Shown one piece after another: positions 1-36,197 of a DNA stretch of 36,197 nucleotides. A program made the position numbers and the translations under genes. The stretch covers positions 1 to 36,197 of the forward strand of contig JAISXJ010000100.1 in NCBI GenBank assembly GCA_031270565.1. Direction: 5' to 3'. The notes beneath the pieces are model-generated. The model ran no database searches. It saw nothing but the letters and a program-made list of their open reading frames with translations, and had not been told where the DNA came from. Origin of the DNA: Prevotellaceae bacterium. GTDB lineage: Bacteria > Bacteroidota > Bacteroidia > Bacteroidales > Paludibacteraceae. Positions within the stretch are counted from its first letter, which is position 1, and every line of letters starts with the position of its first letter.

Positions 1-263
1 GAAATGTGCCGCAATAATTGTATATGTATATAGCGTCACAACGCAAAAAAACTTCGCGTTGATAACCAGTAACCAAAAAGTTTTTAATAAATGATAAGCC
101 CTTGAATACAAGGAGTTAAAGCGAATGCGGGGGGGGGCTTTTGTAACGAGCTTACTTTTAGCCGGTTGAACCGTCTAAACAGCAAAAATGGTGAATATGG
201 AATACCAGATATAAACATAGTCTTGAGTTAATTTTAGTTGTGTATAAGAACGGGGCAAAAGTA
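1..263 (-). repeat. Poly-C leader element, copy 1 (continues past left window edge)
   Basis: Shares promoter, TTTAGACGGTTcAACCGgCTAAA hairpin, GTTACAAAAGC(9)GCATTCGC, CCTTGTATTCAAGG hairpin and TTATCATTTATTAAA with the copies at 11504, 17730-18016 and 35068. Confidence 0.85.
84..218 (-). CDS. Conserved 44-aa micro-ORF, copy 1 (9-C tract)
   Basis: MFISGIPYSPFLLFRRFNRLKVSSLQKPPPAFALTPCIQGLIIY*; same length and core as copies 3 and 4; promoter TACTTTTG at 263-256. Below the length cutoff of the supplied ORF track. Confidence 0.4.
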   Translation of the reverse strand: MFISGIPYSPFLLFRRFNRLKVSSLQKPPPAFALTPCIQGLIIY

Positions 264-336
264 ATACTTTTTAGTGAATAACTAATAGTGAATAATTTTT
301 TTTCGGGCTTTTATTTCTCTGTGTCTCTCTGTGTGT

Positions 337-2616: not shown

Positions 2617-4692
2617 ATGAAAACAAATTACAGACTTTTTGTATTAGCGCTCACCATTTGCAGCTTGAGTGTAAACGCGCAATCATTTACCTACAACGGT
2701 ATTAACTATGAAGTTACTTCTACTTCGCCAAATGAAGTAAAGGTTGCTAATAACAGAAGTTATTCAGGGGCGGCAGTAATACCCAGTTTGGTTAAGTACA
2801 ACAGCAATACTTATGCTGTTACTGCGATAGGAGAGCAGGCTTTTCTCTTTTGCAGTACCTTGACTTCGATAACTATTCTCGAATCAGTAGAGACGATTGG
2901 AGATTATGCTTTTCGTGGTTGTATCGGTTTGACTTCGGTAACCATTCCTAATTCAGTAGAGACGATTGGAGATTATGCCTTTCGTGGTTGCAGCGGTTTG
3001 ACCGGTACATTAACTATTCCTAATTCAGTAGAGACGATTGGGAAGGGGACTTTTTACAGTTGCACAAGCTTGGAGTCTGTAATGATTCCTAATTCAGTTA
3101 AGACAATAGGAGTGCAGGCTTTTTACTATTGCACGAGCTTGGTATCTGTAATGATTGGTAATTCAGTAGAGACGATTGGAGAGGAGGCTTTTTACGAGTG
3201 CAGCGATTTGACTTCGGTAACAATCGGTAATTCTGTAGAGACGATTGGAGATTATGCTTTTTACGGTTGCAGCGGTTTGAATTCGATAACAATCGGTAAT
3301 TCTGTAGAGACGATTGGAAATTATGCTTTTTCCTATTGCAGCGGCTTGACCGGCACATTAACTATTCCCAATTCGGTTACTTCGATTGGAAGGTGGGCTT
3401 TTGATGGTTGCAGCGGTTTGACTTCGGTAACAATTGGTAATTTAGTAGAGGCGATTGGAGAGTGGGCTTTTTACGGTTGCAGCGGTTTGATCGGTATTGA
3501 TGTTGCTGCAGGCAATCTGCATTACAGTTCCCTTGACGGCGTATTGTTTAACGAAGTGCAGGATGCATTGATACAGTACCCCGGTGGTAAAGCAGGCAGT
3601 TATATTATTCCTGAATCTGTAAAGACGATTGGAAGGTATGCTTTTGAGAATTGCAGCAAGTTGACTTCTGTAACAATCTGTAATTCAGTAGAGACGATTG
3701 GAGAGGGGGCTTTTGCCGTTTGCGAAAGTTTAACAGAAGTAACTATTGGAAATTCGGTTACTGCGATTGGAGAGATTGCTTTTTACAAGTGCAGCAAGTT
3801 GATTTCGGTAACAATCGGTAATTCTGTAAAGACGATTGGAGTGGAGGCTTTTTCTTATTGCATCGGTTTAACCGGTACATTAACTATTCCTAATTCAGTA
3901 GAGACGATTGAAGGTGGAGCTTTTGCCGTTTGCGAAAGTTTAACAGAAGTAACTATTGGAAATTCGGTTACTTCGATTGAAGAGTGGGCTTTTTCCGGTT
4001 GCAGTGGCTTGACTTCGGTAACAATCGGTAATTCTGTAAAGACGATTGGATGGGCGGCTTTTTGCGATTGCAGCGATTTAGAGACAATATATGTAAAAGC
4101 AATCACTCCGCCTGTAGCGGATTATTATACCTTTGACAATGTGCTGACCGGTATTCCTGTACACGTGCCCTGCGGCAGAGCGTCGGCGTACCAAAGCGCC
4201 GCAGAGTGGAGCAGTTTTGCCAATTATATAGAAGATCTTCCGCTGCTCAATCTCACTGTACAAAGCGAAGATGTACGCAAAGGAACGGCAAGCATCACAC
4301 AGGCAAACACCTGCGACAATAGTACGGCAGTCATCGCGGCAACGCCCCTCGTCGGCTATCAGTTTAAACAGTGGAGCGACGGCAATACGGACAATCCGCG
4401 CATCGTTACCGTAACAACAGATACGACGTTCACGGCAATCTTTAGCGGCATAGACGGCACACAGGCTACTGCCTTTGCGCTCTATCCGAATCCCGTAAGA
4501 GATGAACTGTTTATTTCGGGTGTGTCGGGAGAAGCAAGGATTGTAATCTCAGATTTGTCAGGGCGCACGGTAGGGGTGAAAAATATTTCGTCCCTACAAA
4601 CCGGCGAGATAAGCATCAATGTATCGCATTTGGCAAAAGGTGTGTATCTGATAAAAATCGGCAATTATACAGGGAAGATTGTGAAAGAATAA
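2617..4692 (+). CDS. BspA-like leucine-rich repeat (LRR_5) surface protein with T9SS type A C-terminal sorting domain
   Basis: Signal peptide; many ~23-aa repeats (NSVETIGDYAFxGCSGLTSVTI); divergent repeat domain (GYQFKQWSDGNTDNPRIVTVTTDTTFTAIF); C-terminal LYPNPVRDELFISG...GVYLIKIGNYTGKIVKE. Confidence 0.92.
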   Translation: MKTNYRLFVLALTICSLSVNAQSFTYNGINYEVTSTSPNEVKVANNRSYSGAAVIPSLVKYNSNTYAVTAIGEQAFLFCSTLTSITILESVETIGDYAFRGCIGLTSVTIPNSVETIGDYAFRGCSGLTGTLTIPNSVETIGKGTFYSCTSLESVMIPNSVKTIGVQAFYYCTSLVSVMIGNSVETIGEEAFYECSDLTSVTIGNSVETIGDYAFYGCSGLNSITIGNSVETIGNYAFSYCSGLTGTLTIPNSVTSIGRWAFDGCSGLTSVTIGNLVEAIGEWAFYGCSGLIGIDVAAGNLHYSSLDGVLFNEVQDALIQYPGGKAGSYIIPESVKTIGRYAFENCSKLTSVTICNSVETIGEGAFAVCESLTEVTIGNSVTAIGEIAFYKCSKLISVTIGNSVKTIGVEAFSYCIGLTGTLTIPNSVETIEGGAFAVCESLTEVTIGNSVTSIEEWAFSGCSGLTSVTIGNSVKTIGWAAFCDCSDLETIYVKAITPPVADYYTFDNVLTGIPVHVPCGRASAYQSAAEWSSFANYIEDLPLLNLTVQSEDVRKGTASITQANTCDNSTAVIAATPLVGYQFKQWSDGNTDNPRIVTVTTDTTFTAIFSGIDGTQATAFALYPNPVRDELFISGVSGEARIVISDLSGRTVGVKNISSLQTGEISINVSHLAKGVYLIKIGNYTGKIVKE

Positions 4693-8761: not shown

Positions 8762-11296
8762 TTAAAGAGATGTACCGTCTTTTGTTTTGGACGTTTTGAT
8801 TAAGCCAAAGATAATCATCCCCAGCAGCACGACAATCACGACGCCAACCACGATGGATGCCACCAGCGAAATCCGCGCACTACTCTGGTAAACCTCGTCC
8901 ACGCATTTAAACTCAATCTTGTGACTTCCGGCGGGTATCTGTATGCCTCTGAGAATATAATTGACCTGTATAACGGGTGTCTCTACGTCATCGACAAAGG
9001 CTTTCCACGTCTTGTAATAGACCTCTGAAAACACAGCCAGTCGCGCTTCGGAACTATTACTCTCATAAACAAGATTACCGGGGTTTACATAATTCGTCAG
9101 TTGAATATCCGCGCCGGCGTCATTGGCAACGGTATTCGGCAACGTTATCTTTTGACGCCAGCGAGCGTCAATGACGGCTGTTGTTCGCACATCAATCTCT
9201 GCGAGCGCCTTAATCTCTTCGTCGGGCGTATCCACCCAGTGAATATTCTCCACAAACCACACATTACCCATAGCCTGAACATTCTTATGCACACGCGCTC
9301 CCTGTTCTGTCGAATAAATAATGTATCGCGTATTGAGCATATTGACCACGTTCATAATGTATCGCGTATTGAGCATATTGACCACGTTCATATTGATTGA
9401 CGAACTTAAATAATAATCTATTATATCCTGATAACGCCGCAGTTTGGCGGGACTGTATCCGCCCACCGACTTGTGGAAATAGGATGTTTCCGACTCGTTA
9501 AATGTGTTTTCGGTGAGACGATTCAGTACGCGGTAATCAGGGTCTTTATCCTGTAAAATATGTTTGTCTATGTCGGAAGCTACAAACTCCTTTGCTTTTT
9601 TCCCGGAAATAAAGTTATCTTCTCCGAGAAACCGCCTATCTACTGTCCACAAGTCGCAAAGAATAAGTATGCCAAGCGCTGCCACCACGTAGGATGTTTT
9701 CCATACTTTGGAGAGATAGAACCATATAATACCTGCGGCTAAGGCGATAAAGGCTGTCGAACGCCATGCGTCGGAAGCGAGCATGTGTTTACGGTCGGCG
9801 ACAAGCGCTGTTTGTAACCATTCGGGGAAGTTGGCATCGACGGATGCGGAGAAATTGAATAAAGCGCTTCCAAACAGGGCGAAAAACAGACAGATGCCGC
9901 CCGTAATACCCGTAGCGACGAGCAACGGTTTGAGTAACCGTTTGCGTGCTTCACCCGAAGCATTCACAATCTCCTTGAGGGCTAACACTGCCAGCGTCGC
10001 CATGCCTGTGTTTGCCATTATCAGCGCCGTAGAGGGCGTGCGGAACTTGTTGTACAGGGGTAAATGGTGAAACAGAAATTCATTAACCGCCATAAAGTTT
10101 CGCCCCCACGACAGAATCAGCGACACAATCACCACTGCCAATATCCACCATCGTTCGGGCTTTTTCACGATAATTAGCCCAAGCACAAAAAGCAGACAGA
10201 TAATAGCTCCCGCATAGACAGGTCCTGAGGTGAAAGGTTGCGTACCCCAGTACATCGGCGCGTGTCGGGTAAACTGCGCTGCCTGTCGCGCCTGAACGTC
10301 CTCGTGGATGAGGAAGTCGTATGTTCGGGAATCCTGACCGATGTTGTAATGCGAACTGCCTCCGTAGAAGTTGGGAATTAACAGGGTCATACTTTCCATT
10401 TTGTCGTAACTCCATTGGTAGGCATAGTCAATGTCAAGCCCCGATTTGGTTTTCCCCGAAGCATCCGCCTGCAAGACGGCTCCTCCTCGCATAGTATCCT
10501 TTGCGTAGTCCATTGTAGGAATCAATGACCCAAGCGACGGCGCAATAGAGAGTAAAGCCACCGGCAGCAACACCGCCACCGCTGTCAGATAGGTTTTCAG
10601 CGTGCGCTGTATGACGGCATAAATCAGATAGACAATTGCCAGAATGGCAATCATCAGAATCAGGTAGTAGGAAATCTGCTGATGTCCCCACAGAATATTT
10701 ATGCCCGTAAAGAGCAGCGTTACCAGTGCGCCAATGAGATATTTTTTCTTAAAACAGAGAATAATCCCGCCAAGCACGGGCGCCATAGTTGCCATGACGA
10801 GTCCCTTACTGGCGTGGCCGGCATCAATAATGATTAGATTGTAAGAGGCAAATGCGTAGGCCACCGCTCCCACAATGCTCAGCCACGGCTTGCATCTTAG
10901 CGACAGCATAAAAATATAAAAGCCCAGCAGATAAATAAACAGTATCCCGATATGATTCGTTGGAAGACAGAATGTAAATATCTTTCCAAAGATACGGAAT
11001 ACATTCGTTGTCGGCGGCATATAGGTATAATTGGCGGGCATCCCGCTGAACATACTGTTCGACCAGAAAGCATAATCGCCTGTCTGTTTGTGATACTCTC
11101 TCAGGTCGTTTCCCCAGCCTCGCGAACTTTTGATGTCGCCTTGCATCAGGTCTTTATTCTCGAAAACGATGGGAGAAAAATAGGCAACAGTCAGCCCCAG
11201 AAACAGGGCGACAGCCGCAATATGCGGCAAAGATTTTTTGAACAGGTTATTATTCATAGCAGTTTTTTGTTTGGATGGCATCATTAAAACGTTCAT
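8762..11296 (-). CDS. YfhO-family multi-TM membrane protein
   Basis: Long hydrophobic protein; MQGDIKSSRGWGNDLREYHKQTG, FWSNSMFSGMPANY, late soluble domain ending in a TM; contains an internal 36-bp duplication. Confidence 0.8.
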   Translation of the reverse strand: MNVLMMPSKQKTAMNNNLFKKSLPHIAAVALFLGLTVAYFSPIVFENKDLMQGDIKSSRGWGNDLREYHKQTGDYAFWSNSMFSGMPANYTYMPPTTNVFRIFGKIFTFCLPTNHIGILFIYLLGFYIFMLSLRCKPWLSIVGAVAYAFASYNLIIIDAGHASKGLVMATMAPVLGGIILCFKKKYLIGALVTLLFTGINILWGHQQISYYLILMIAILAIVYLIYAVIQRTLKTYLTAVAVLLPVALLSIAPSLGSLIPTMDYAKDTMRGGAVLQADASGKTKSGLDIDYAYQWSYDKMESMTLLIPNFYGGSSHYNIGQDSRTYDFLIHEDVQARQAAQFTRHAPMYWGTQPFTSGPVYAGAIICLLFVLGLIIVKKPERWWILAVVIVSLILSWGRNFMAVNEFLFHHLPLYNKFRTPSTALIMANTGMATLAVLALKEIVNASGEARKRLLKPLLVATGITGGICLFFALFGSALFNFSASVDANFPEWLQTALVADRKHMLASDAWRSTAFIALAAGIIWFYLSKVWKTSYVVAALGILILCDLWTVDRRFLGEDNFISGKKAKEFVASDIDKHILQDKDPDYRVLNRLTENTFNESETSYFHKSVGGYSPAKLRRYQDIIDYYLSSSINMNVVNMLNTRYIMNVVNMLNTRYIIYSTEQGARVHKNVQAMGNVWFVENIHWVDTPDEEIKALAEIDVRTTAVIDARWRQKITLPNTVANDAGADIQLTNYVNPGNLVYESNSSEARLAVFSEVYYKTWKAFVDDVETPVIQVNYILRGIQIPAGSHKIEFKCVDEVYQSSARISLVASIVVGVVIVVLLGMIIFGLIKTSKTKDGTSL
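9321..9392. repeat. Perfect 36-bp tandem duplication inside the YfhO-like CDS
   Basis: aatgtatcgcgtattgagcatattgaccacgttcat occurs twice head-to-tail; adds 12 aa (MNVVNMLNTRYI repeated). Confidence 0.95.
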
Positions 11297-11503: not shown

Positions 11504-11720
11504 TATCTTTGCCGCCGTTATTCACATCTACAAACTAAGATCAGGAATGCTTACATTCAGGATTACGAATTTACCATTTTTTCAGTTTAGACGGTTCAAC
11601 CGCCTAAAAGTAAGCTCGTTACAAAAGCCCCCCCCCCCGCATTTGCCTTAACTCCTTGTATTCAAGGGCTTATCAATTATTAAATATTTTTCTGTTAACA
11701 GTTAACAGCGCTCTCTCCGG
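11504..11720 (+). repeat. Poly-C leader element, copy 2
   Basis: Promoter TATCTTTG 11504-11511; C-tract of 11 at 11628-11638; same flanking core. Confidence 0.85.
11547..11651 (+). CDS. Micro-ORF, copy 2: frameshifted by an 11-C tract (34 aa)
   Basis: MLTFRITNLPFFQFRRFNRLKVSSLQKPPPPHLP*; with 9 C it would read on to ...AFALTPCIQGLINY*, as in the other copies. Confidence 0.35.
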   Translation: MLTFRITNLPFFQFRRFNRLKVSSLQKPPPPHLP

Positions 11721-11721
11721 T

Positions 11722-11798
11722 GTTGTCAGCACGTCGTCCGCAACTGCGGACGGTTTCCCGAAGTTGTCAGCACGCTGTCCGCAACTGTGGACGGCTTT
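11722..11798. repeat. Tandem ~41-bp repeat, two units, each with a GTCCGC-AACT-GYGGAC hairpin
   Basis: gttgtcagcacg[tc][ct]gtccgcaactg[ct]ggacgg[tc]ttt at 11722 and 11763. Confidence 0.8.
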
Positions 11799-11968: not shown

Positions 11969-12047
11969 AGTGAATAACGAATAGTGAATAATGACTGACA
12001 ACTGAAAATTAATAACTACACTCTACAAACTACAAACTAAAAAAACT

Positions 12048-12055
12048 ATCTTTGC
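12048..12055 (+). promoter_or_regulatory. Bacteroidetes -7 promoter element (TATCTTTG) for rocD cluster
   Basis: TAnnTTTG match 87 bp upstream of ATG 12142. Confidence 0.6.
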
Positions 12056-12141
12056 AAGCGATTTTTTTGATGTTTAATTTTATAACACCAGAGATACGGA
12101 CATTTGTTTGCCGATTGCCGGTGTCGAATAATAAAAATACT

Positions 12142-13350
12142 ATGAAAACCAGTGAATTTATTGCCCGTGAGAATACTTACGGCGCTCACAACTATCACCC
12201 GCTTCCCGTTGTTCTGTCCAAAGGCAAAGGCGTGCACGTCTGGGATGTTGAAGGCAAACGCTATTTCGATTTTCTCGCCGGCTATTCAGCATTAGGTCAA
12301 GGACATTGTCATCCCAAAATCATTGCAGCGCTTAAAGAACAAGCCGACAAGCTGACACTTGTTTCCCGCGCTTTCTATTCCGATATTTTAGGAGAATACA
12401 TGGAATTTGCTTGCCGTTTCTTCGGCTACGATAAACTGTTACCGATGAATTCGGGCGCCGAAGCTGTGGAAACAGCGCTCAAATTGGCGCGTCGCTGGGG
12501 CTATGTGCGCAAAGGCGTTGCCGCCGAGAGCGCCAAGATTGTCGTCTGTGCAGATAATTTTCACGGACGCACCATCACCATTGTTTCGATGAGTACCGAC
12601 CCATCTTCATACGCCAATTATGGTCCCTATACGCCCGGCTTCATTAAAATACCTTATAACGATGTCCAATCGTTGCGAGATGCGCTTGCCGACCCTGCGG
12701 TGGTAGCCTTTCTGGTGGAGCCGATTCAGGGCGAAGCGGGCGTATGTGTACCCGATGACGGTTATCTGAAGGCATGTTACGACTGTTGCCGCGATAAGAA
12801 TGTCCTGTTCATCGCCGACGAAGTCCAGTCAGGCATCGCACGCACGGGGCGACTTTTAGCCTGCGATTATGAAGATGTACGTCCCGATATATTAATTCTT
12901 GGTAAAGCGCTTTCGGGAGGCGTTACGCCGGTGTCGGCTGTGCTGGCGGACGATGATGTGATGCTGACCATTCGCCCCGGCGAACACGGTTCCACCTTCG
13001 GCGGCAATCCGTTGGCATCTGCTGTCGGCATTGCAGCGCTGCAAGTGGTGATGGAGGAACATCTGGCAGAGAATGCGTACGCTATGGGAAATCTCTTTCG
13101 TGAGGAAATGTGTCGCCTGAATCATCCCCTGATTACGCAGGTTAGAGGGAAAGGACTTCTTAATGCTGTCGTTACAAAACCCGACGGCGCTGTTCAGGCG
13201 TGGGATATTTGTTTAAAACTTAAAGAAAACGGTCTTATCGCCAAGCCTACGCACGATTATATTATCCGTTTCACTCCGCCGCTTGTCATCACCGAGCCGG
13301 AGATGCGCGAAGCCATCGCTATTATTCAACAAACCTTTGCTGCATTATGA
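12142..13350 (+). CDS. rocD: Ornithine--oxo-acid aminotransferase
   Basis: PLP class III aminotransferase; [70 protein letters not shown]. Confidence 0.92.
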
Positions 13351-15996: not shown

Positions 15997-17451
15997 TTAT
16001 TTTTTTGAAATGCAACGCACAGAGAGGCCGTGAGACCGAGTAAGGACAAAGTCCGTCTTCTGGTTAGTCTCGTAGAAATGCAGGGTGTTACCGGAACTAG
16101 TACCACTAGCTACAGTGCTCCAGTAGTAGCTGTCGGTGCCAGGGGCGTAGTACAACTTGCCAGAGGTGTCCCGGCCGCCGGCAGCGGGCAAAAACAATGC
16201 GTCGCCAACCTGCATACCGGTAGTGTAATTGTTGTTAACGCTCGACCAGTTTGTGCCTACCTTTGTGATAGCGTTATTAGAGGTATTTATCACAGCAGTC
16301 CATTCCTCTTTTGTAGGCACGCGCCAACCGTCAGGGCAGGGATTAGCGGAAGTCATGTTCCAGTCAGCAGATGTGGTGGGAGGCTTTGTAATGTTTGTCC
16401 AGTCTGGTACAGACGATTTGTACGCCGGGTCTTGGTCTTGCGCCTGTGTCACAGCCGCATTGCTAACCCCCCATTTGTATTTCGCCCCGTGAATCTCCGC
16501 CGCAGGCGTAAACGGGTCTGCCGCTTGATTAGCGCCAAGATTGTGACACATGAATGCCCTCCATACTATGTCGCTTGAGGCGGCTGCTTTTGTATACGCC
16601 CCGCAACATGAACAATCCTGAAAAGATGTGTTCAGTTCAAGCACCCTATCGGCTGAGCCATCATTGTAAACGGCATACAACTTGAGCTTGAAAGCCTGGT
16701 CGCGAGTTTTGTTCAACAGCGTGCTTTGCAGCGATTCTTTGTAGTAAACCTTCACCTTGCACTTGGTGCCGCTGGTGATGGAGCCGCTGTAATTAGTGTT
16801 CGGAACAATGCTGTCTACGATATGTCCGCCGCCAACCGTTTCGCTGAAATAAAAGCGAACATTGTTTACCGTACCGAAAGGAGTAAACGTGTATTCCTGC
16901 ACGCCGGAATAGGGAGCCGCACTAACGCCGTCCTGAGACGTGCGGTCAATAAAATCGGTCTTCTGGAAGGTACGGACAGCTGTCGTGCCGCAACTGTTTA
17001 TGTCGTCATTGCCGGTGGTGGCAATGTCAAAGCAACGCTTACCGGAAAACGTACCGCTACCTGTAGGGAGACCGCCGCTTGTAAGGATATCGACGCCATC
17101 GCTACCGCCCCAATAATTCCACTTGCTTCCGTCCCAAAGATAGAGACCGTCTCCGTTAGGTATAAGGTAATCGTTGGCGTTCCAGACAATCATCCCAGCC
17201 AGCGCCTGTTTCTCAGTCGGAGTAGAGATAGCGCCCGCGTTAGGGAAGGTAGCGGGGATAGCAGTCAAAGAGGTCAGCTCTACATTCGAGAGCAGTAGCC
17301 CGCCTTTAACGCCGTTTTGCGGATTCAAATCTACAATCGTCCCTGCTTTTGGCAGGTCGCTACCTCCAATAGTTACCTGCGCCGCAGCATAATTGGCGAC
17401 GCTTAGAAATGCTGCTGTAAATGCAGCGAAAATAAATTGATTAGTTTTCAT
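15997..17451 (-). CDS. FISUMP-type (Fibrobacter succinogenes major paralogous domain) secreted protein
   Basis: Signal peptide (MKTNQFIFAAFTAAFLSVANYAAAQ); C-terminal GAKYKWGVSN...MTSANPCPDGWRVPTKEEWTAVI...LFLPAAGGRDTSGKLYY...YYWSTV...LSVRCI. Confidence 0.8.
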   Translation of the reverse strand: MKTNQFIFAAFTAAFLSVANYAAAQVTIGGSDLPKAGTIVDLNPQNGVKGGLLLSNVELTSLTAIPATFPNAGAISTPTEKQALAGMIVWNANDYLIPNGDGLYLWDGSKWNYWGGSDGVDILTSGGLPTGSGTFSGKRCFDIATTGNDDINSCGTTAVRTFQKTDFIDRTSQDGVSAAPYSGVQEYTFTPFGTVNNVRFYFSETVGGGHIVDSIVPNTNYSGSITSGTKCKVKVYYKESLQSTLLNKTRDQAFKLKLYAVYNDGSADRVLELNTSFQDCSCCGAYTKAAASSDIVWRAFMCHNLGANQAADPFTPAAEIHGAKYKWGVSNAAVTQAQDQDPAYKSSVPDWTNITKPPTTSADWNMTSANPCPDGWRVPTKEEWTAVINTSNNAITKVGTNWSSVNNNYTTGMQVGDALFLPAAGGRDTSGKLYYAPGTDSYYWSTVASGTSSGNTLHFYETNQKTDFVLTRSHGLSVRCISKK

Positions 17452-17729: not shown

Positions 17730-18016
17730 ACGGCAACACCTCCGAAAATTCCGGAAACGCGCCGCAATAATTGTATATATATAGGGCAAGAAGACGCTAA
17801 AAAACGTCGTGCTACTAAGTGTAAACTGAAAAGTCTTTAATAAATGATAAGCCCTTGAATACAAGGAGTTAAGGCGAATGCGGGGGGGGGCTTTTGTAAC
17901 GAGCTTACTTTTAGCCGGTTAAACCGTCTAAACTGAAAAAATGGTAAATATGGAATCCCAGATGTAAGCATCGTTTTGTATTGATTTTAGATGTGTTTAA
18001 GAACGGGGCAAAGATA
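17730..18016 (-). repeat. Poly-C leader element, copy 3 (upstream of the FISUMP gene)
   Basis: Promoter 18016-18009; 9-G (plus strand) tract 17882-17890; shares gccgcaataattgtata downstream segment with copy 1. Confidence 0.85.
17837..17971 (-). CDS. Conserved 44-aa micro-ORF, copy 3 (9-C tract)
   Basis: MLTSGIPYLPFFQFRRFNRLKVSSLQKPPPAFALTPCIQGLIIY*; promoter TATCTTTG at 18016-18009. Confidence 0.4.
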   Translation of the reverse strand: MLTSGIPYLPFFQFRRFNRLKVSSLQKPPPAFALTPCIQGLIIY

Positions 18017-18028
18017 ATACTTTTTTTA

Positions 18029-18065
18029 GTGAATAGTGAATAACGAATAGTGAATAGTGAATAAT
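18029..18065. repeat. 7-bp periodic degenerate repeat
   Basis: GTGAATA GTGAATA ACGAATA GTGAATA GTGAATA in register; similar tracts at ~271-296, 467-505, 11970-11992, 21640-21765, 34847-34878. Confidence 0.8.
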
Positions 18066-18111
18066 ATTTTTTTAGTGGTTAGAGTGTAGTTATTAGTTAG
18101 TGAATAGTGAA

Positions 18112-21402: not shown

Positions 21403-21806
21403 CGGTATAAAGTTGCTGCAAGCGCCTTTAAAACCCCGCAAAAAATACGTTAATAATCTAATTACCATAATGTTATTATGCTTTTTCAGGCTCAAAATAT
21501 TTTTTATTTGTTTATAATATTTATGCTTTTTTGTATCGCATAACCTCTATTTGAGCCATTAAAAGTTTCCGTATCATTAAAAGTCCGGTACAACTTGTTC
21601 ATTCAACAATTCGGGGTGCAAAGGTACATCTTTTTTTTTATAATGAATAATATTTTAGTGAACAGTTTATAGTTTTTAGAGTTTAGAGTTTAGTTATTAG
21701 TGAATAGTGAGTAGAGTTTAGAGTGTAGTTTTTAGTTATTAGAGTTTAGTTATTAGTGAATAATACCCGTTGTGCAATTAGAAAACGATAAAAAGTCCTT
21801 TCACTA

Positions 21807-21909
21807 CCCCTCGTTTGTAACGAGGGGTAAATGATTATCTCGTTTGTAACGAGATTGGTCGTTGAAAACAACCAACCAATAACTCCTCGTCTCTGACGAG
21901 GAGTAGTGG
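21807..21909. repeat. REP-like hairpin cluster, copy B, adjacent to RAYT 3' end
   Basis: CCCCTCGTTTGTAACGAGGGG hairpin plus the three-hairpin module ctcgtttgtaacgag/attggtcgttgaaaacaacc/aaccaataactcctcgtctctgacgaggagtagtgg. Confidence 0.85.
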
Positions 21910-22458
21910 CTACACTTCATCTATTTCTATTACAGCGCTTAATCCCGCATAGTTTCGAGCAGAAGAAAATAAATATTCTTCTGCCTTTGCCACAATACCG
22001 GTACGTACCGGATTTTCGTGAACATAATTTATCCGTTGCTCTATCATTTCTGTTGTTGTTAATTCTACCGGATGACTTTTATCCTGCCAAAAACGATGGT
22101 GTTCAATGCGATGGTCAAACTTTCCGACATATTCAAAACGGTACAAAATCCAGTCTCTCCGGCTTTCCGGCAATTGTTTTAGTTCTTCCAACATAGATTT
22201 TGCCGTGTGTTTTTTATAGTCCCTGATAAAATCACTCATTCTGAAAGGTGGCTCTACACTGCAAACCAAGTGTAAATGATTTGTCATCAAACACCATGCA
22301 TATAATTTTAGCCCTTTGTTTTTTCGGCAATATGTCAACGATTCGGCAATTATGTTTTTGTAAATAAGGCGCGTAAATACATCTACCCAATCAGTTATGG
22401 TAAATGTAAGAAAATAAACACCGTCCTGTTTTTCTACTCTATAATTCTCTGATGACAT
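21910..22458 (-). CDS. REP-associated tyrosine transposase (RAYT; Y1/IS200-like HUH family)
   Basis: YFLTFTITDWVDVFTR, AWCLMTNHLHLVCSVEPPFRMSDFIRDYKKHTAKSM, YVHENPVRTGIVAKAEEYLFSSARNY. Confidence 0.9.
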   Translation of the reverse strand: MSSENYRVEKQDGVYFLTFTITDWVDVFTRLIYKNIIAESLTYCRKNKGLKLYAWCLMTNHLHLVCSVEPPFRMSDFIRDYKKHTAKSMLEELKQLPESRRDWILYRFEYVGKFDHRIEHHRFWQDKSHPVELTTTEMIEQRINYVHENPVRTGIVAKAEEYLFSSARNYAGLSAVIEIDEV

Positions 22459-22485: not shown

Positions 22486-22568
22486 CGTTTGTAAACGACT
22501 TACCATTTGCCTCTCGTTACAAACGAGATTACCATTTACCCCTCGTTACAAACGAGGGGTAAATGGTA
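22486..22568. repeat. REP-like hairpin cluster on the 5' side of RAYT
   Basis: CTCGTTACAAACGAG (22513-22527) and perfect 18-bp stem TACCATTTACCCCTCGTT-ACA-AACGAGGGGTAAATGGTA (22530-22568). Confidence 0.85.
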
Positions 22569-35067: not shown

Positions 35068-35360
35068 TATCTTTGCCGCGACATTCTCATCAAATAATAA
35101 TGAATAAACAATTATGATTATTTCAGGGCTTTTATCCGTACCATTTTTTCAGATTAGACGGTTTAACCGGCTAAAAGTAAGTTCGTTACAAAAGCCCCCC
35201 CCCGCATTCAGCTTAACTCCTTGTATTCAAGGGCTTATCATTTATTAAAGACTTTTTTATTTACGCTTAACAGCGCGAAGTTTCTTCGTGTTTTTTCGCC
35301 GTATACAACTATAAGGGCAACTTTCCTGAAGTTTCGGGAGGGTTGCCGTTTTGAACTTAT
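35068..35360 (+). repeat. Poly-C leader element, copy 4 (upstream of a lipoprotein gene)
   Basis: Promoter 35068-35075; 9-C tract 35195-35203; downstream segment aligns with the reverse complement of copy 3. Confidence 0.85.
35114..35248 (+). CDS. Conserved 44-aa micro-ORF, copy 4 (9-C tract)
   Basis: MIISGLLSVPFFQIRRFNRLKVSSLQKPPPAFSLTPCIQGLIIY*; promoter TATCTTTG at 35068-35075. Confidence 0.4.
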   Translation: MIISGLLSVPFFQIRRFNRLKVSSLQKPPPAFSLTPCIQGLIIY

Positions 35361-35516: not shown

Positions 35517-36197
35517 ATGAAAAAACAATTTTTCCAAGTGGCTCTCGTAGCCGTAACAGTAATGGCAGGCGTAGCAATGACCGCCTGCGGAAGCAGTAAA
35601 CAGGCAGCGCAAAGAAGCGTTGCAAGTACGCAACAGTCATCAACTGACCAAGAAATTGAGCAGTTGAAACGACAAATGGAACTCGACAAGCTGAAAGGCG
35701 AAGCCGACCGCGCTGCAAAACAGCGCGAGGCAGATGCGGCAATCGCCGAACATAATGCCAAAATGCAGGCAGAGCGTTTAGCGGCAGCAACCGAACAGCC
35801 CTGCCAACTCTATGACGATGCTGAATGGTTCACCGGTACAGGTGTGCGCCGCGTGAAACTCAACAGTTTGAACACTGCGGCAACAGCCCTTTTGCGCAGC
35901 ACGCAGCAGCAACTCCGCCTCAAACTAAAAGGCGTGTACAAAGCCGTTGTGCGCGACTATTTTGACCAAATGGATATGGACGAAGGCTCTTACGCCGTAT
36001 CGCATATCGAAAGCGCAGGCGATTATATTATCGACCAAAAGTGCAACGAAACCTACGAGGCATGTCGAAAAAACACCGCGCCAGATGCAGAAGGCTATGT
36101 TACGCTCTATATGGGCATAAAAGTCAGTAAAAAAGCCGTTGTTGAGGAGATAATCAACGAAATTTCCAAAGACAAAAAAATGGAAGTGCGTTTTAAC
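35517..36197 (+). CDS. Coiled-coil lipoprotein, partial (runs off right edge)
   Basis: MKKQFFQVALVAVTVMAGVAMTACGSSKQAAQRSV: signal peptide with lipobox MTAC; charged helix QEIEQLKRQMELDKLKGEADRAAKQREADAAIAEHNAKMQAERLAAA; 227 codons without a stop to window end; not in the supplied ORF track. Confidence 0.8.
   Translation, partial: MKKQFFQVALVAVTVMAGVAMTACGSSKQAAQRSVASTQQSSTDQEIEQLKRQMELDKLKGEADRAAKQREADAAIAEHNAKMQAERLAAATEQPCQLYDDAEWFTGTGVRRVKLNSLNTAATALLRSTQQQLRLKLKGVYKAVVRDYFDQMDMDEGSYAVSHIESAGDYIIDQKCNETYEACRKNTAPDAEGYVTLYMGIKVSKKAVVEEIINEISKDKKMEVRFN

Follow-up and report, generated by a model that had tools for sequence, protein, structure and literature searches.

A dispersed leader family with a proline-encoding C tract precedes FISUMP surface-protein genes in a Prevotellaceae draft genome and may act as an attenuator

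Results

Four leader copies in the analysed window

The window, that is, the whole stretch of 36,197 nucleotides analysed here, is contig C31 of a 1.99 Mb draft MAG consisting of 201 contigs. It contains four C runs of at least nine nucleotides, which equal 6 overlapping 9-mers; the mean in shuffled sequences was 0.13 and none of the shuffles reached 6. Each run is part of an upstream open reading frame (uORF) within a longer leader. The features of the four copies are as follows.

1–272, reverse strand: leader copy 1, its 3' side cut by the contig edge
84–218, reverse strand: uORF of copy 1, 44 aa (MFISGIPYSPFLLFRRFNRLKVSSLQKPPPAFALTPCIQGLIIY)
129–137, reverse strand: C9 tract of copy 1
11504–11511, forward strand: -7 box TATCTTTG of copy 2
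11547–11651, forward strand: uORF of copy 2, 34 aa, ending KPPPPHLP
11628–11638, forward strand: C11 tract of copy 2, the feature under study
11649–11672, forward strand: hairpin H2 of copy 2, of the TAACTCCTTG-TATT-CAAGGGCTTA type
12142–13350, forward strand: class III aminotransferase (rocD-like), the next gene, about 480 nt past copy 2, with a TANNTTTG box in the gap before it
18009–18016, reverse strand: -7 box TATCTTTG of copy 3, lying 45 nt upstream of the uORF ATG
17837–17971, reverse strand: uORF of copy 3, 44 aa (MLTSGIPYLPFFQFRRFNRLKVSSLQKPPPAFALTPCIQGLIIY)
17882–17890, reverse strand: C9 tract of copy 3
17848–17871, reverse strand: hairpin H2 of copy 3
17793–17812, reverse strand: hairpin T1 of copy 3
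17731–17764, reverse strand: hairpin T2 of copy 3, terminator-like, without a strong U tract
15997–17451, reverse strand: FISUMP protein (PF09603) after copy 3, whose gene lacks a separate -7 box between the leader and its ATG
35068–35075, forward strand: -7 box TATCTTTG of copy 4
35114–35248, forward strand: uORF of copy 4, 44 aa (MIISGLLSVPFFQIRRFNRLKVSSLQKPPPAFSLTPCIQGLIIY)
35195–35203, forward strand: C9 tract of copy 4
35214–35348, forward strand: hairpins of copy 4, H2 (35214–35237), T1 (35273–35291) and T2 (35315–35348)
35517–36197, forward strand: secreted-type protein after copy 4 (MKKQFFQVALVAVTVMAGVAMTACGSSK...), without a Pfam match, cut by the window end

The truncated leader of copy 1 is 85% identical to positions 17754–18025 and scores 182 bits with the model R1. 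At positions 11717–11797 of copy 2, two 40-nt repeats (GTTGTCAGCACG...CGTCCGCAACTGCGGACGG) stand in place of T1 and T2, and a similar replacement was seen in L049 and L110.

The preliminary description had read the tracts as 9, 11, 9 and 9 C long, with 44-aa products from the 9-C copies and a 34-aa product from the 11-C copy, and our counts and translations were the same. As it had proposed, one C added to the 9-C copies joins the uORF to the frame PPPRIRLNSLYSRAYHLLKTF... or to its RIQ or RIC variants, and the stops that it gave for this open third frame agree for copies 2 (11808), 3 (17469) and 4 (35475). Its statement that no 10-C copy is present is right for the window and wrong for the genome, in which L036 (G000:C17) and L129 (G000:C200) carry 10 C and L195 carries 12.

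A dispersed leader family upstream of FISUMP-type genes

The four copies belong to a dispersed family of leaders of about 300 nt, of which the genome has about 90 copies. An exact 16-mer gave 67 matches, a covariance model gave 94 including fragments, and 90 copies were scorable for tract length. The conserved unit has the order of a Bacteroidota -7 box (of the TATCTTTG type), the uORF with the C run, hairpin H2 (TAACTCCTTGTATTCAAGGGCTTA), hairpin T1 and hairpin T2, and several copies have mosaic downstream segments in common. In 69 of 71 copies, the TANNTTTG box lies 40–50 nt upstream of the start codon of the uORF. In one copy, L039 (G000:C26:1-1604), a TTCTCC tandem array takes the place of the leader tail and yields PPPSPSPSPSPS...

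The distribution of the family is patchy. The leader peptide was detected among 358 genomes of the bacterial family in the host genome and in a second MAG (G017, Nc350_bin145) only, besides one spurious match, and it was absent from the four same-genus genomes examined. A scan of GTDB r220, which may leave out the host genome itself, with a 29-nt leader pattern matched only contigs of Prevotellaceae bacterium Nc350_bin145, whose sample name suggests a termite-gut origin. This MAG was rejected for same-locus comparison, as the best matches were 78–90% identical and the loci were not clearly orthologous; the spread of tract lengths described below refers to copies compared within one assembly, plus a few copies of the second MAG in the class counts. 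The spurious match, L133 (G197, E=6e-4), is weak, adjoins an amylase-like gene and lacks leader features, and was rejected as a leader. Rfam 15 gave no match at the gathering threshold in the window and none at E<=1 for one leader, and our literature searches found no paper describing such leaders, including before FISUMP genes.

The next gene is co-oriented with the leader in 43 of the 44 copies with room for one, whereas the orientation of the upstream gene is random (34:34). The single exception is a spurious overlapping ORF after copy 2, where the real next gene, the rocD-like one, is co-oriented. As every scorable copy is thus co-oriented with its next gene and the uORF is constrained (see below), a plain MITE is disfavoured. 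The next genes mostly encode FISUMP-type secreted proteins (MKTNQFLFAALTAAFLSVASFSAAQVTIGG...). The genome has 70 matches to PF09603, many of them with the leader, and among 53 AQVTIGG starts, 26 are preceded by the exact leader pattern and about 10 more by a divergent leader, while about 11 are cut by a contig edge. Large paralogous PF09603 sets are also found in Ca. Ornithobacterium hominis, which has up to 17 FISUMP paralogues per genome (PMC6421346).

The gap between leader and gene contains a TANNTTTG box in just six of the 44 copies, with 3.3 expected, and none of the six genes concerned is of the FISUMP type. We infer that the leader promoter drives transcription of the FISUMP genes.

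Sequence evidence that the uORF is translated

The consensus peptide of the uORF is MLTSGILYLPFFQxRRFNRLKVSSLQK-PPP. In 70 of 73 copies its ATG lies 81 nt before the tract and no stop or frame-breaking indel intervenes. Within RFNRLKVSSLQK, variation is concentrated at third codon positions (0.0857, compared with 0.0083 and 0.0060 at the other two), and 70 copies carry synonymous changes and 13 nonsynonymous ones, despite a roughly threefold excess of nonsynonymous sites. For the pN/pS analysis, 11 copies were picked for divergence (L206, L226, L227, L228, L231, L232, L212 and others). Codons 15–27 gave 0.35 in frame and 1.27 and 1.44 out of frame, and codons 2–14 showed no in-frame constraint in the same test. 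These codon-position and pN/pS patterns, together with the position of the box and the co-orientation, indicate that the uORF is translated in the 5' leader of the gene that it precedes; RNA pairing could also contribute to its conservation. Most copies have the PPP motif. The most divergent uORF, that of L228 (KIPIH), lacks PPP, and its leader lacks T1 and T2.

Tract length is kept better than reading frame

The tract is exactly 9 C long in 70 of the 90 copies of the host genome. The remaining copies have 8 C (six copies), 7 C (seven), 10 C (two), 11 C, 12 C and 6 C (one each) and 3 C (two), and several of these deviations look like C-to-T or C-to-G changes and not like changes of length. In class A (AAAAG-C9-G, ending LTPCIQGLIIY and a stop), 54 of 59 copies have 9 C, including a few G017 copies, even though near-neighbour copies differ at 5–12 of 170 flanking positions. 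Class B (AAAAG-C-T, mostly ending LNSLYSRD and a stop) alone is variable, with 9 C in ten copies, 8 in five, 7 in five and 10 in one, again with some copies from G017 counted in. C9 is also retained, despite a different frame, in other classes (TACAAAATA-C9; ACAAAAA-C9-GAAATCGCGTAA), and class D has one extra base ahead of the tract.

A C9 tract encodes at least two prolines in any frame. The valS gene of the same genome (named from the motif PPPNVTGVLHMGH) encodes PPP as CCCCCCCCC, which is also C9. The presence of C9 in this essential gene means that such a tract need not be unstable. Because C9 occurs in 70 of 90 copies despite insertions that change the frame, and because it encodes PPP in valS, the comparison of copies indicates that the length of nine, and with it PP(P) in any frame, is conserved better than the reading frame. 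The hypermutable tract and the setting of the frame by tract length, both suggested in the preliminary description, were not supported, given the constancy of C9 in class A, its presence in valS and its retention where upstream or downstream insertions change its frame.

The longest C runs seen in the genome sit outside the leaders: a C12 close to the end of a HigA-like antitoxin frame (L196, G000:C139, reverse strand, near 1096) and a C17 in a reading frame by the edge of a contig (L194, G000:C53, near 692).

The open third frame

Up to T2, none of the 36 class A copies and none of the 18 class B copies has a stop in the third frame. Stop-making alleles numbered 1, with about 5.4 expected, which is a modest signal. 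No codon-position selection was detected over the whole region in this frame (P=0.81), and its pN/pS (0.63 in class A, 0.49 in class B) is not clearly apart from that of the other frames. Between the hairpins and the gene, stop counts were 82 in the long frame and 133 and 112 in the others, a difference that is biased because the long frame was picked as the longest. The first stop of the third frame often precedes the next ATG by 14–69 nt, in no fixed phase, and at times lies far earlier. In a few copies, L118 and L121 among them, the third frame continues in phase into the gene, and in L128 its end overlaps the FISUMP ATG.

Among the 73 copies that were scored, or nearly so, the uORF has the short outcome in 67 and the long one in six (L036, L098, L100, L110, L128 and L130); the divergent copies L226, L228 and L231 are also in the long frame. 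By a hand tally, long-frame leaders make up about 7 of 21 before non-FISUMP genes and 2 of about 37 before FISUMP genes, an excess that shared descent may explain. Entry into the long frame takes one added nucleotide in class A and the opposite shift in class B.

Hairpins

H2 is a conserved hairpin about 11 nt 3' of the C run. H2, T1 and T2 are all predicted to be stable, with a median of -19.9 kcal/mol for T2. The sequences are conserved, though compensatory change in the hairpins was not above that in shuffled controls. A T-rich stretch follows T2, though a clean U tract is missing, and T2 was not picked up by the terminator scan.

Discussion

Starting from the copy number, co-orientation, promoter box, uORF translation and constraint and C9 constancy, which the sequence comparison establishes, we tentatively prefer, as a quite possible reading, the view that the C tract is part of a polyproline leader-peptide attenuator in which a proline stall in the uORF governs the downstream gene. 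A dispersed 5' leader of about 300 nt would thus drive the FISUMP surface-protein genes and some others. Transcription would start at the leader promoter, the uORF would be translated, and C9 would place two or three prolines in a row after the conserved RRFNRLKVSSLQK nascent segment. As the uORF ends just before H2 or within about 15 nt after it, ahead of T1 and T2, a slowing or stall of the ribosome on the polyproline run might set the timing that determines if transcription continues beyond T1/T2 and reaches the gene; the stall, termination at T1/T2, the attenuation and its signal are the putative parts of this scheme. Such an attenuator would work without tract length serving as a frame switch. 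The hairpins count against it in that their compensatory change does not exceed that of shuffles and T2 lacks a clean U tract, and so do L228, a leader with neither PPP nor T1/T2, and the occurrence of both short-frame and long-frame outcomes.

The nearest known counterparts are the mgtL and mgtP leaders of Salmonella mgtA and mgtCBR, which are regulated by their proline codons, and polyproline stalls before rut sites or an intrinsic terminator, subject to EF-P effects on coupling, uncouple transcription from translation (PMC5021804). As in these systems, a proline-codon uORF stands here in a long 5' leader, with RNA structures and then the regulated gene downstream of it. Unlike them, about 90 copies per genome precede a paralogous surface-protein family, the prolines are encoded by an uninterrupted C9 and the promoter is of the Bacteroidota type and not part of an enterobacterial leader; the likeness drawn here is one of architecture. 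With about one leader per 22 kb, most of them before secreted-protein genes, a polyproline leader would, if this attenuator is real, be used genome-wide and bring a large set of surface proteins in a gut Bacteroidota bacterium under one translation-sensing control. The roughly 90 natural variants form a test set for the relation of proline stalls, tract length and downstream frame to expression.

Slipped-strand phase variation, as suggested in the preliminary description, is unlikely, though it deserves serious attention. Tract length would then determine if the uORF terminates ahead of the hairpins (OFF) or continues through T1/T2 toward the gene (ON), switching FISUMP members. Part of that suggestion stands: the tract lies inside a uORF that appears to be translated, lengths of 6–12 C occur (mostly 9, the others chiefly in class B, where related copies show 7, 8, 9 and 10 C), the third frame is stop-free through the hairpins with few stop-making alleles, and long-frame copies exist, among them L036 with 10 C and L128, whose open frame reaches the FISUMP ATG. 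The constancy of C9 and its presence in valS speak against it, as do the same length in classes with different frames, the opposite shifts needed in classes A and B, the lack of clear amino-acid-level selection on the long frame and the variable position of its end relative to the next ATG.

Contingency homopolymers or repeats are known in surface-gene families, such as the poly-G loci of Campylobacter, the promoter poly-G of Treponema tpr and the repeats of Neisseria opa. The leaders resemble these in that each member of a surface-protein family has a single homopolymer or simple repeat, but here the tract is in a separate uORF about 200–600 nt before the gene, whose long frame reads in frame into that gene in only few copies, and is nearly constant in length. 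In a bolder version, about 90 near-identical leaders switch about 70 surface proteins, and slippage of the uORF C tract makes ribosomes either stop before the transcription-blocking hairpins or translate through them. We rate it slightly less probable again; if true, it would be phase variation by attenuation and not by breaking the gene itself.

It is rather improbable that the leaders were simply duplicated with their genes and homogenised by recombination, leaving the tract as a passive homopolymer and the uORF as a relic. The mosaic downstream segments and the patchy occurrence in two genomes fit such a history, and by the hand tally about a third of the non-FISUMP copies are in the open frame, as expected without selection on the post-tract frame. 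A relic would leave unexplained why the uORF shows third-position bias and low pN/pS in no frame but frame 0, why its frame is intact before the tract in nearly all copies and why co-orientation is universal.

Programmed ribosomal or transcriptional slippage on the C run, yielding a fixed fraction of long product, is very improbable. The arrangement of a slippery run and a conserved hairpin downstream invites the idea, but class A needs a -1 and class B a +1 slip, class D has its extra base before the tract, and the long frame lacks clear protein-level constraint. Least credible is the explanation of the length differences by sequencing or assembly errors, which the many copies at contig ends of this fragmented draft and the single 11-C and 12-C and two 10-C cases would allow, since class B lengths vary together with flanking substitutions and some differences are C-to-T changes.

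Other repeats in the window

An IS200-type Y1 transposase (PF01797) is encoded at 21910–22458 on the reverse strand, between 50-nt inverted-repeat hairpins at 21805–21854 and 22512–22561 (TACCCCTCGTTTGTAACGAGGGGTA). Palindromes of its flanks also occur in intergenic gaps, including those between leaders and FISUMP genes, which resembles a RAYT/REP system. Intergenic gaps (e.g., 471–505, 12005–12056, 18022–18099 and 21651–21767) are mosaics of AT-rich short repeats (TTCACTATTCACTA, CTCTACAAACTACAAACT) common across the genome. At 9318–9389, a perfect 36-nt tandem duplication in a large membrane protein gene (8762–11296, reverse strand) adds an in-frame MNVVNMLNTRYI repeat. The gene at 2617–4692 encodes a leucine-rich-repeat protein of the BspA type (PF13306, PF18962); its repeat unit of 69 nt occurs about 17 times, and the protein carries a type IX secretion tail.
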